From an uncultured Flavobacteriales bacterium (GTDB lineage: Bacteria; Bacteroidota; Bacteroidia; Flavobacteriales_D; Crocinitomicaceae), in the NCBI GenBank assembly GCA_905478665.1, contig CAJQJL010000134.1, positions 1 through 38,891 of the forward strand: a stretch of DNA of 38,891 nucleotides. The letters run 5' to 3'. Under the pieces are notes generated by a model. That model had not been told where the DNA came from, ran no database searches, and worked only from the letters and a program-made list of their open reading frames with translations. Position 1 is the first letter of the stretch, and every line of letters begins with the position of its first letter. A program made the translations under genes and the position numbers. Positions 10,337 through 12,843 of the stretch are shown here, piece after piece.

Positions 10337-11077
10337 CTATCGTATCGTTCGGATGTAGATCAGTTTATAACGTCCTTTTCCACTGTCGCGTTGGTCAATT
10401 TCAAATTTCCCTGTCGCCTTAATCAGTGGTGTTAATTTCTCGAAACCGTAATTTCGTGCATCGAAATTTGGTTGTTTCTTTTGAATTAAACTTCCAACGT
10501 CTCCCAAAAATGCCCATCCATCATCGTCGGCGAGGTCATTTACAGATTGCGTGATTAGTTTGATTGTGCTTGGGCCAACTGTGTCTACCGTCTTCTTCTT
10601 GGGCTTTGTCTTGCCTGTGGAAGCTGCTTCTTCTTTATCGTCAGACCCCAATATTTCGAGGTAAACGAATTTATCACAGGCCACAATGAACGGGTTTGGT
10701 GTTTTCTTTTCACCAATTCCAATAACCATTAGTCCAGCCTCACGGATTCGCGTTGCAAGCTTTGTAAAGTCACTGTCACTTGATGCGATACAGAATCCGT
10801 CTGCCTTTCCAGAGTAGAGGATGTCCATTGCATCGATAATCATAGCTGAGTCCGTTGCATTTTTTCCAGTTGTATAACCGTACTGTTGCATCGGTGTAAT
10901 TGCATTTTCCAAAAGAACTTTTTTCCACTTTGATAAATGGGGGTTTGTCCAGTCTCCATAGATACGTTTTATGGTAGGATTGCCATACTTGGCAAGCTCC
11001 TCCATCATTTCTTTTATGTACTTGGATGGAATGTTGTCCCCGTCAATTAGAACGGCGAGTGTTTTATCTTTTTCCAT
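10337..11077 (-). CDS. NYN/PIN-like nuclease domain protein with C-terminal OST-HTH (LOTUS) domain
   Basis: The ATG at 11077-11075 gives 246 residues and puts the first NYN strand at the N-terminus; the frame is open upstream to 11125 but that adds residues unrelated to the family. The NYN domain (about 5-140) shows the acidic residues of the PIN-like fold: LIDGDN (Asp12, Asp14), Asp76 in NATDSAMIIDAMD and SSDSDF (Asp101, Asp103), with RIYGDWT between. A basic linker (about 145-165) leads to an OST-HTH/LOTUS domain (about 168-240, GWAFLGDVGSLIQKKQPNFDARNYG). LabA/DUF88-type proteins of this architecture are thought to bind or cleave RNA. It lies 37 nt downstream of the dnaX C-terminal reading frame on the same strand, with no terminator between, so it is probably co-transcribed with dnaX. 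Confidence 0.85.
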   Translation of the reverse strand: MEKDKTLAVLIDGDNIPSKYIKEMMEELAKYGNPTIKRIYGDWTNPHLSKWKKVLLENAITPMQQYGYTTGKNATDSAMIIDAMDILYSGKADGFCIASSDSDFTKLATRIREAGLMVIGIGEKKTPNPFIVACDKFVYLEILGSDDKEEAASTGKTKPKKKTVDTVGPSTIKLITQSVNDLADDDGWAFLGDVGSLIQKKQPNFDARNYGFEKLTPLIKATGKFEIDQRDSGKGRYKLIYIRTIR

Positions 11078-11114
11078 TATATATATTTTGATTTGAGGTG
11101 AAGAACATTGAATT

Positions 11115-11495
11115 TTAATATTCAATATCGAGATTGAAAGTGTTCTTCAGCGTGTGCAAGTTAGGGTTTTTTCTTGCAAGTGCCGCAAATTTGTCCTTTC
11201 CAGTTTGATATTTCACCTCTTGTTCGGGATTGTTTGTGATCTCCAAACGAATCATAATGCTAAAGTTTTTCAGGTCTCTCCTGACAAAATCAAGTAGGTC
11301 AGATAAGGCAGGCTGGATGTAGTCAATTTGAACTTGATTGTCTACTTCCATAATGTATTTGTCGTCCGCCTCTCGCTTTGGCTCTCGCTTAATCATTGCG
11401 TTGTAGAAGGTTTCCTTCCCCTCATTTTTCTGTTGAAAAGCAAATTTACGCCAAGCCATTTTTAGATCGTCATAAGCGTACGCATTGTGGGGCAT
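11115..11495 (-). CDS. DnaX C-terminal (tau-type) domain as a separate reading frame
   Basis: This frame starts with ATG at 11495 and codes for 126 residues (MPHNAYAYDDLKMAWRKFAF to LHTLKNTFNLDIEY). The pattern 'MP...y....l...W..FA...k..GK', then 'DNQVQIDYIQPALSDLLDFVRRDLKN' and 'KYQTGKDKFAALARKNPNL' is what I expect at the C-terminus of Bacteroidota DNA polymerase III gamma/tau proteins. It is in the same frame as the linker frame at 11514-11739 but separated from it by an in-frame TAA (11516-11514); the ATG is 18 nt after that stop. It could be made as a separate subunit by reinitiation, reached by stop-codon readthrough, or be normal coding sequence broken by a sequence error. The domain contacts partner replisome subunits in better-known tau proteins; that role is inferred. 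Confidence 0.65.
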   Translation of the reverse strand: MPHNAYAYDDLKMAWRKFAFQQKNEGKETFYNAMIKREPKREADDKYIMEVDNQVQIDYIQPALSDLLDFVRRDLKNFSIMIRLEITNNPEQEVKYQTGKDKFAALARKNPNLHTLKNTFNLDIEY

Positions 11496-11513
11496 GTTGT
11501 TTATGTCGATCCC

Positions 11514-11739
11514 TTATATTTTTTCCTCTTCCTTTTTCTCCATCATTTTTTTGATGGAAAGATTGGATGTGCTCAAATGACCAGATGGTGTCTCCAAAAC
11601 TTTCGGCGGAGGCTTCATCATCAAATCCTTGGACGATGCCTTAATGGTTGGCTTAACCGTAGCTTTTTGGGCTTTCTCCCTAAGGTTTTGATTCGGAAAC
11701 GGGATGATCTTGACGTGGTCCGTCAGTCGTTTTTTTTTT
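11514..11739 (-). other. dnaX: dnaX tau linker encoded in the -1 frame
   Basis: From the A10 run at 11739-11730 the frame -1 relative to the dnaX core stays open for about 71 codons after the run (RLTDHVKIIPFPNQN to KKEEEKI) before TAA at 11516-11514. Its Lys/Pro-rich low-complexity composition is that of the flexible linker normally found between the clamp-loader ATPase and the tau C-terminal domain, so this is coding sequence and not noise. A -1 shift on the A run would yield a product of about 441 residues. The same frame resumes after the TAA as the C-terminal domain. Confidence 0.6.
11711..11739 (-). promoter_or_regulatory. dnaX: Candidate dnaX frameshift site: A10 run plus hairpin
   Basis: On the coding strand ten consecutive A residues (11739-11730) follow codon Leu366, then a 4-nt spacer and a hairpin TGACG-GACCA-CGTCA (11725-11711) whose first three bases are the zero-frame stop TGA. 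A slippery A run with a downstream stem a few nucleotides away is the arrangement of known dnaX recoding sites: ribosomal -1 shifting in E. coli, and slippage on an A run in Thermus. The zero frame gives a gamma-like 371-residue protein and the -1 frame gives the longer product. Confidence 0.6.
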
Positions 11740-12838
11740 CGAGCTCCGTGTTGATGGAGCACAATTGCATGAGGGCCATTTCGACCAGCAATCGTTGATT
11801 TTTTGAAGCTTTATATTCGACATCGGCTCTGCTCAATACACCTAAAGCGCGCAAGAGGTAACCAGCATCTATTTTCTTCGATTGCTCGACAAATTTTGCT
11901 TGAATAGACTCGCTTACTTCCAATAATTGCGCGGTGCGAACATCTTTGCAAACTAACAAGTTTCGGTAGTGATCGGCTAATCCAACAATAAAATTGTGTG
12001 GATCGAATCCCTTTTCAATAATGTCGTTCATTAATAGCAATGAACTAGGAATATCATCTTTCAAGGCATTCTCAACGATCCTGAAATAGTAATCGTAATC
12101 GAGAATGTTTAGATTATCTATTACGTTGTCGTACGTAATTGAATCTCCAGAGAACGTAACGATCTGATCGAAGATAGACAATGCATCACGAAGGGCCCCA
12201 TCTGCTTTTTGAGCGATAATATGCAATGCATCCGTGTCAGCAGTAATCCCTTCCTTCTCAGCAATGAAAGCCAAATGGTCAGCAATGTCCTTTACCTTGA
12301 TACGGTTGAAGTCGAAAATTTGACAACGTGAAAGAATCGTTGGAATGATCTTGTGTTTCTCAGTTGTTGCCAGAATAAATATTGCATGCTTTGGCGGTTC
12401 CTCCAGTGTCTTCAAAAAAGCATTGAATGCCGATGTTGAGAGCATGTGAACCTCATCAATGATATACACCTTATGCGTTCCCAATTGTGGAGCAATGCGC
12501 ACCTGATCAATTAGGCTTCTGATATCTTCAACTGAATTGTTTGAAGCAGCATCCAATTCGTAAACATTCAACGATGCTCCTGAATTGAAAGATTCACAAG
12601 AATCGCAAACGTTACATGCTTCGATATTCTCCGTTCTGTTAAAGCAATTGATTGTCTTTGCAAGAATTCTCGCCGATGAGGTTTTTCCCACTCCACGCGA
12701 ACCACAGAACAAAAAAGCCTGCGCGAGATGATCACTTTTTATTGCATTACGAAGCGTAGACGTAATCGACTTTTGACCAACAACAGTGTCGAAGGTCTGA
12801 GGTCTGTATTTTCGCGCCGAAACAATAAAATCACTCAT
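11723..12838 (-). CDS. dnaX: DNA polymerase III subunit gamma/tau, clamp-loader ATPase part
   Basis: The zero-frame product is 371 residues and covers the AAA+ clamp-loader ATPase that, with delta and delta', loads the beta clamp on DNA. Visible motifs are Walker A GSRGVGKTS (46-54), four zinc-ligand cysteines (65, 75, 78, 81), Walker B DEVH (128-131) and the sensor/arginine motif SRC (170-172), followed by the lid and collar helices up to about 365. The start is ATG at 12838; a TTG one codon earlier is not needed. The frame ends at TGA (11725-11723) right after an A10 run, at the point where a tau linker should begin; the linker continues in the -1 frame. An exact -7 box (12844-12851) ends 5 nt before the ATG, suggesting a leaderless mRNA. 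It is divergent from the gene at 13013. Confidence 0.93.
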   Translation of the reverse strand: MSDFIVSARKYRPQTFDTVVGQKSITSTLRNAIKSDHLAQAFLFCGSRGVGKTSSARILAKTINCFNRTENIEACNVCDSCESFNSGASLNVYELDAASNNSVEDIRSLIDQVRIAPQLGTHKVYIIDEVHMLSTSAFNAFLKTLEEPPKHAIFILATTEKHKIIPTILSRCQIFDFNRIKVKDIADHLAFIAEKEGITADTDALHIIAQKADGALRDALSIFDQIVTFSGDSITYDNVIDNLNILDYDYYFRIVENALKDDIPSSLLLMNDIIEKGFDPHNFIVGLADHYRNLLVCKDVRTAQLLEVSESIQAKFVEQSKKIDAGYLLRALGVLSRADVEYKASKNQRLLVEMALMQLCSINTELEKKND

Positions 12839-12843
12839 CAAAA

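Follow-up and report, generated by a model that had tools for sequence, protein, structure and literature searches.

The window, a stretch of 38,891 nucleotides from an uncultured Flavobacteriales bacterium, carries dnaX on its minus strand. The zero frame of the gene (11723..12841) encodes a short gamma-type form of 372 amino acids, which comprises the clamp-loader ATPase, the lid, and domain III, and ends at TGA 11725-11723. Its product matches the Pfam families DNA_pol3_delta2, DNAX_ATPase_lid, and DNA_pol3_gamma3, the model TIGR02397, and positions 1-368 of the gamma/tau model NF011531 (614 positions; E 6.9e-205). The minus strand reads G 11740, a run of ten A's (A10) at 11739-11730, CGAC, and then the TGA, so that the encoded gamma frame closes 4 nt past the run. 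A10 is proposed as a slippage run from the sequence and the family alignment. The earliest third-frame stop, TAG 11682-11680, lies 47 nt past A10, which is far by the standards of the class.

The -1 frame is open from A10 to TAA 11516-11514, for about 74 codons, and encodes a tau linker rich in lysine and proline (11517..11738, minus strand; KKKRLTDHVKIIPFPNQ...) that aligns with 22 genus relatives. Beyond the TAA the same frame resumes as the tau C-terminal domain (11115..11513, minus strand; first ATG at 11495), whose product matches positions 496-613 of NF011531 with E 2.5e-18. As positions 1-368 of this model are matched by the zero frame and 496-613 by the -1 frame, both pieces are parts of one tau. 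The original prediction had not noted the C-terminal domain. It had described the ten A's with the zero-frame TGA 4 nt later, about 71 open codons in the -1 frame with the composition of a tau linker, and a polarity opposite to that of E. coli, and the minus-strand letters agree with all three, gamma being the zero-frame product and tau lying in the -1 frame. The gene adjoining dnaX at 10337-11125 (minus strand) encodes an NYN + OST-HTH/LOTUS protein, and in L004 and L012, too, the gene after dnaX is a close relative.

The C-domain is identified as part of tau by its NF011531 match. Pfam gives no match for either the C-domain or the linker, and a PDB sequence search with the C-domain returns only two chitinase chains (E 0.057-0.058). 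The AlphaFold model of the domain has a mean pLDDT of 76.8 and a pTM of 0.60. Foldseek finds no match to this model at E<=0.001, and domain V of E. coli tau is absent from the best 50 rows. The top rows include 4tps (SirA with DnaA domain I) at E 0.013 and the DciA DUF721 domain 7ykm at E 0.16, a likeness that may serve as a weak hint.

A dnaX match is present in 34/34 genomes of the genus. The site was read in 31/34 of them, G027, G032, and G038 being left out, and the contig of L015 ends before it. In the genus search, the dnaX matches of G027 and G038 contain stops or are broken. In 29/30 genus loci that reach the site, the zero-frame stop lies 14 nt from the start of a run of A10, A11, or A13, and the remaining one, L012, has A11 and a continuous frame. 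In the family of the window, the 95 loci with the N-terminal anchor have tau in the -1 frame in 91 cases and in frame 0 in two, and two have no assignable frame. The run is kept in 77 family loci and lost in 16. The alignment proposed in the original prediction bears out both the A run and the -1 frame: across 75 split run-bearing family loci, the window included, 48 aligned columns are free of gaps and the ten A's are invariant in 75/75 (these loci were selected for a run of at least 10, and the 16 run-less family loci are not among them). The dnaX A10 run exceeds chance. The coding sequence for domain III and the C-domain in the genes read (166,353 nt) has six runs of nine or more A's, and the linker beyond the site (70,009 nt) has four. 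Lysine codons elsewhere are 27% AAG, yet the run remains pure A.

The 16 run-less family loci with tau in the -1 frame (L226, L228-L232, L235, L243, L322-L325, and L327-L330, from the genera coded g12, g16, g19, g27, and g30) have a gamma stop of the form ATC-N-TAR in 13 cases, and ATGA, TAATG, or GTGA in the rest. In 6/16 the open stretch of the tau frame begins just some 10 nt ahead of the gamma stop. These letters hint at termination-reinitiation, perhaps at AUC, which would yield a separate C-domain.

The class sample spans 72 families and comprises 293 genomes with the N-terminal anchor, of which the family of the window supplies 95; the tau frame is assignable in 282. In 250/282 the stretch that separates domain III from the C-domain contains nine or more A's in a row, and 32/282 have no such run. 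At least one run-bearing genome was read in 62/72 families. A10 is the usual length (201 of the 250), followed by A11 (26), A9 (20), A12 (2), and A13 (1). Relative to the clamp-loader frame, 105 of the run-bearing genomes have tau in frame 0, 122 in -1, and 23 in +1. Thirteen families have more than one frame state among their run-bearing members. On a FastTree built for 282 rows from up to 185 residues, the most parsimonious history has 34 changes of frame state and 11 changes of run presence. The close pair L053/L055 (99% identical over up to 150 amino acids) has A10 with -1 against A11 with frame 0. Most frame differences between close relatives, in contrast, have A10 on both sides, and the pair L253/L260 has a GUGAGC-type hairpin and A10 in both members, with frames +1 and 0.

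Among 80 loci taken from named records, some of whose contigs are shared with the class set, a run of nine or more A's is present in 60 and absent from 15, and 5 are not assignable. Their titles include Pedobacter, Hymenobacter, Mucilaginibacter, Flagellimonas, Aquimarina, Chitinophaga, and Crocinitomicaceae, and A10 with the stops is present in the Pedobacter, Hymenobacter, and Flagellimonas loci. L355 and L358, from metagenome-assembled genomes titled Chryseobacterium gleum and Chitinophaga pinensis, have dnaX 82% and 81% identical to that of the window and carry the site of its family; these record titles look wrong. In other classes of the phylum, 13/31 loci have a run of at least nine near the same place, most of them with no assignable frame. 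Family f80 (L348, L349, L350, and L352) has A10 in 4/4 loci, three split and one continuous, and A9 or A10 near the same place also occurs in f78, f79 (2/3), f82, f85, f86, f89, and f91.

If slippage yields all frames, both non-tau frames should end shortly after the run. In the class they stop within 60 nt of it in 247/250 genomes and within 30 nt in 236/250. For runs of at least eight (245 of the first 278 loci read), both stops lie within 60 nt in 115/116, 104/106, and 23/23, as against 64%, 56%, and 67% at control positions 60-570 nt further along the same genes. Per family, the stops are nearer than in the control in 60/62 and 57/62 (p 2e-10 and 3e-10, values that are too small as relatives are not independent). 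A -1 shift gives no access to the third frame, and this frame, too, is closed within 30 nt in 94% of the -1 class versus 58% in the control. Both stops also lie within 30 nt of the run in 99 of the 105 run-bearing genomes whose frame is continuous, and the 16 continuous run-less genomes have no such stops (medians 42 and 47.5 nt, counted from positions 40-100 nt past the anchor). Named-record loci with the run have both stops within 60 nt in 59/60 cases.

Two hairpins flank the run in the window. The downstream one, TGACG (11725-11721) with CGTCA (11715-11711) and the loop GACCA (11711..11725, minus strand), was proposed in the original prediction as a stem that begins at the stop codon. Its letters pair as written, but across the family loci its pairing is 78.9% versus 78.8% in column shuffles, with no co-variation, and folding against shuffles gives z values of -0.07 and -0.52, with no excess stability. 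The downstream hairpin is thus rejected as a conserved element, both folding and pairing being at shuffle level.

The 60 nt upstream of the run fold well (z -3.15). RNAalifold recovers here a stem of GCUCC (11760-11756) and GGAGC (11747-11743), with an 8-nt loop and a 3-nt spacer to the A run, which is the proposed slippage-stimulating hairpin (11743..11760, minus strand). In the 75 family loci (66 distinct) 93.0% of its cells are paired versus 86.9% in shuffles, and there are 24 double changes versus 9.6, with 0/500 shuffles as high. The double changes are confined to one of the five pairs, at which CG, UA, GU, AU, and UG are seen. Co-variation was counted in the family of the window, and the other families were judged by folding. 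In the base-pair profile of 62 families a compact hairpin is seen, the 3' arm of which occupies positions -9 to -2 relative to the run. The strongest hairpin whose end lies no more than 5 nt from the run has a mean of -4.98 kcal/mol versus -1.88 kcal/mol in control windows, for which the G+C content upstream (0.476 versus 0.424 in the control) is a partial confounder. A hairpin ending 0-5 nt before the run is stronger than the control in 50/62 families, with no excess in 12/62, and 203/228 such hairpins end 0-3 nt before it. The position of the hairpin is kept between families, and its sequence differs. Among run-less dnaX genes, most of them from records with Bacteroidaceae, Bacteroidales, or Prevotella in the title, a separate GGGC-loop-GCCC hairpin lies about 45-57 nt past the domain III anchor in 10/12 loci, which were chosen after the motif was seen; L390, L393, L406, L407, L413, L415, L429, L431, L165, and L176 have it, and L402 and L160 do not.

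The dnaX site is best read as a programmed transcriptional-slippage element, with a probability of roughly 0.78. In this reading, a short nascent hairpin just 5' of A10 would form near the exit channel as RNA polymerase reaches the run, and the rA:dT hybrid would realign, giving mRNAs with differing numbers of A's. Those with the linker in frame would be translated to tau (clamp loader, linker, and C-terminal domain), and the remaining ones would stop soon past the run and give a gamma-type clamp loader. With the frames mixed by slippage, it would matter little which one the DNA encodes, and the encoded frame has switched repeatedly in the class while the run, the hairpin, and the flanking stops were retained. 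The run, the stops, the frame states, the hairpin, and the conserved tau frame are observed in the sequences; slippage itself, the action of the hairpin, and the two products with their ratio are what we infer from the locus and its relatives. Slippage is favoured because the run is kept in three frame states, because both non-tau frames are trapped by stops, and because the hairpin lies 5' of the run.

A broader statement, which we hold to be probable though less firmly, is that across the larger part of the sampled class, and in some of the phylum beyond it, the hairpin and A10 cause slippage so efficient that the encoded frame of the essential clamp-loader gene is nearly neutral, and that selection for both tau and gamma holds the run, the 5' hairpin, and the two-frame stop trap. 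Assuming monophyletic families, there are at least 15 within-family switches (two or three states occur in 13 families), and these, with the 34 changes on one tree, support a nearly neutral frame.

The original prediction of a programmed recoding site at A10 holds, and of the two mechanisms that it named, transcriptional slippage is favoured and the ribosomal -1 shift is not. With programmed -1 frameshifting on A_AAA_AAA or A_AAA_AAN, shifted ribosomes would make tau and the others would stop at the TGA to give gamma. This is unlikely, even though all 91/91 split loci read in the family of the window are -1, as a ribosomal shift would also give, and the window has A_AAA_AAA in phase, a stop 4 nt past the run, and the downstream stem starting 6 nt after the heptamer. 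The third-frame stop 47 nt off likewise speaks against slippage in the window, and so, for the class, do the 32/282 run-less genomes, the 12/62 families with no hairpin excess, and the restriction of the double changes to a single pair. Tau is ascribed to ribosomal frameshifting in some bacteria in section 21 of Atkins 2016 (PMC5009743), a paper that also names lysine tRNA content as relevant. However, the downstream stem behaves like shuffled sequence, the conserved hairpin is 5' and not 3', the third frame is also closed early, and the same run occurs in 23 genomes with +1 and 105 with frame 0. Of the frame states and the stops, ribosomal shifting accounts for no more than the -1 state and a single stop, and it is therefore disfavoured as the sole mechanism, and RNA-polymerase slippage of the Thermus type, with a nascent stem-loop, appears to fit better. 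DNA-level phase variation, in which replication slippage would alter the A run and cells would switch between tau and gamma, is very improbable. It would account for one-A differences such as that of L053/L055, but the 75 split family loci have no indel at the site, most frame differences have A10 on both sides, and, should tau and gamma both be required, a cell lacking either of them would be expected to have low fitness.

A homopolymer sequencing error as the cause of the split frame is conceivable when one genome is viewed, as homopolymers are prone to error. It is ruled out by the identical frame relation in 29/30 genus loci, large contigs among them, and by the absence of indels over 75 family loci. 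A relative with 9 or 11 A's and one continuous frame had been named as the sign of such an error. This state does occur, in L012 and L055, but only in these 2/77 run-bearing family loci, and their A11 fits a putative slippage site and not an error in the window. The TAA 11516-11514 is a different matter. A stop in the tau frame between the run and the C-domain is found in the window only (1/250 run-bearing class loci), and it is either a recent nonsense change or a sequence error. As assembled, it would bar full tau in the window even after slippage, which counts against slippage there. If the TAA is real, the genome of the window may have ceased to make tau, with gamma and a separately translated C-terminal piece from the ATG 11495, 18 nt downstream, or with a decaying gene, an outcome that we consider about as doubtful as the ribosomal shift, or slightly more so. 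The singular TAA with an in-frame ATG soon after it, the sister clade without the run, which has stop/start overlaps at the gamma stop, and the presence in the assembly of just one dnaX match at E<=1e-60 agree with such a loss. In opposition to it, the downstream C-domain is intact and 88% identical to its nearest relative, and the assembly has 185 contigs and is 89% complete, so that a base error or strain mixture is possible. In E. coli, tau tethers the polymerase to the clamp loader, and a free C-domain could not.

If the slippage reading is true, selection for making both tau and gamma has been long-lasting, a point that is debated for E. coli, and in dnaX a cellular housekeeping gene has its reading frame fixed by polymerase slippage and not by the DNA. 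Automatic annotation would list genes of this kind as broken or truncated, and the members in frame 0 would hide a second product. Slippage assisted by a nascent hairpin would also become testable in culturable bacteria, for example Pedobacter, Hymenobacter, or Flagellimonas. A literature search in the main texts of open-licence PubMed Central articles retrieved no report of the frame drift, the class-wide stop trap, or the 5' hairpin.

E. coli dnaX uses a -1 ribosomal frameshift on A_AAA_AAG with a 5' Shine-Dalgarno sequence and a 3' stem-loop, and the frameshift product is gamma. The dnaX described here resembles it in its A-rich slip site and in the predicted origin of gamma and tau from one gene. 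In contrast, the shifted product here would be tau, the window has GAA AAA AAA AAC, which gives A_AAA_AAA and A_AAA_AAC, and the site has no supported stimulatory 3' stem-loop. A candidate Shine-Dalgarno-like stimulator, GGAG, precedes the in-phase A_AAA_AAA by 5 nt and coincides with an arm of the co-varying 5' hairpin.

The slippage study of the Roseiflexus IS630 element is reportedly that of Penno from 2015. This element is described as having stem-loop-mediated transcriptional slippage on a T5C5 motif, with unidirectional deletion of a single C, in its transposase (PMC5009743). In both systems an inverted repeat lies directly 5' of the slip motif and a nascent RNA stem-loop is involved, as is proposed here. 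The motif in dnaX differs, being an A10 homopolymer in a housekeeping gene.

Thermus thermophilus dnaX has transcriptional slippage on A9 with tau in the encoded frame (Larsen 2000, via PMC1088944 and PMC5009743). It shares with the present genes at least nine A's late in the gene, near stops in both non-tau frames, and gamma and tau from one gene, which is here a prediction. The window has A10 (11730-11739) after domain III and non-tau stops at 4 and 47 nt. Its tau is in the -1 frame and not in the encoded one, which is the tau frame in 105/250 run-bearing relatives. The run here is mostly A10 and not A9, tau may lie in any of the three frames across the class, and a 5' stem-loop is present, of which the accounts of Thermus dnaX in PMC1088944 and PMC5009743 make no mention. 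A further close known type is the two-ORF dnaX of Antonov et al. 2013 (PMC3711429), with 17 fs-genes from 12 genera, nine of them with ten A's, and -1 at the DNA level, for which slippage was proposed. The original prediction was not aware of a description for this lineage; the two-ORF A10 gene and the slippage proposal are known already from that work. As in those genes, the gamma stop of the window lies beside a poly-A run and the tau C-domain is in the -1 frame, interrupted here by one TAA. Members in frame 0 or +1 with the same run, third-frame stops, and a 5' hairpin are not mentioned in the two-ORF dnaX account of that paper.
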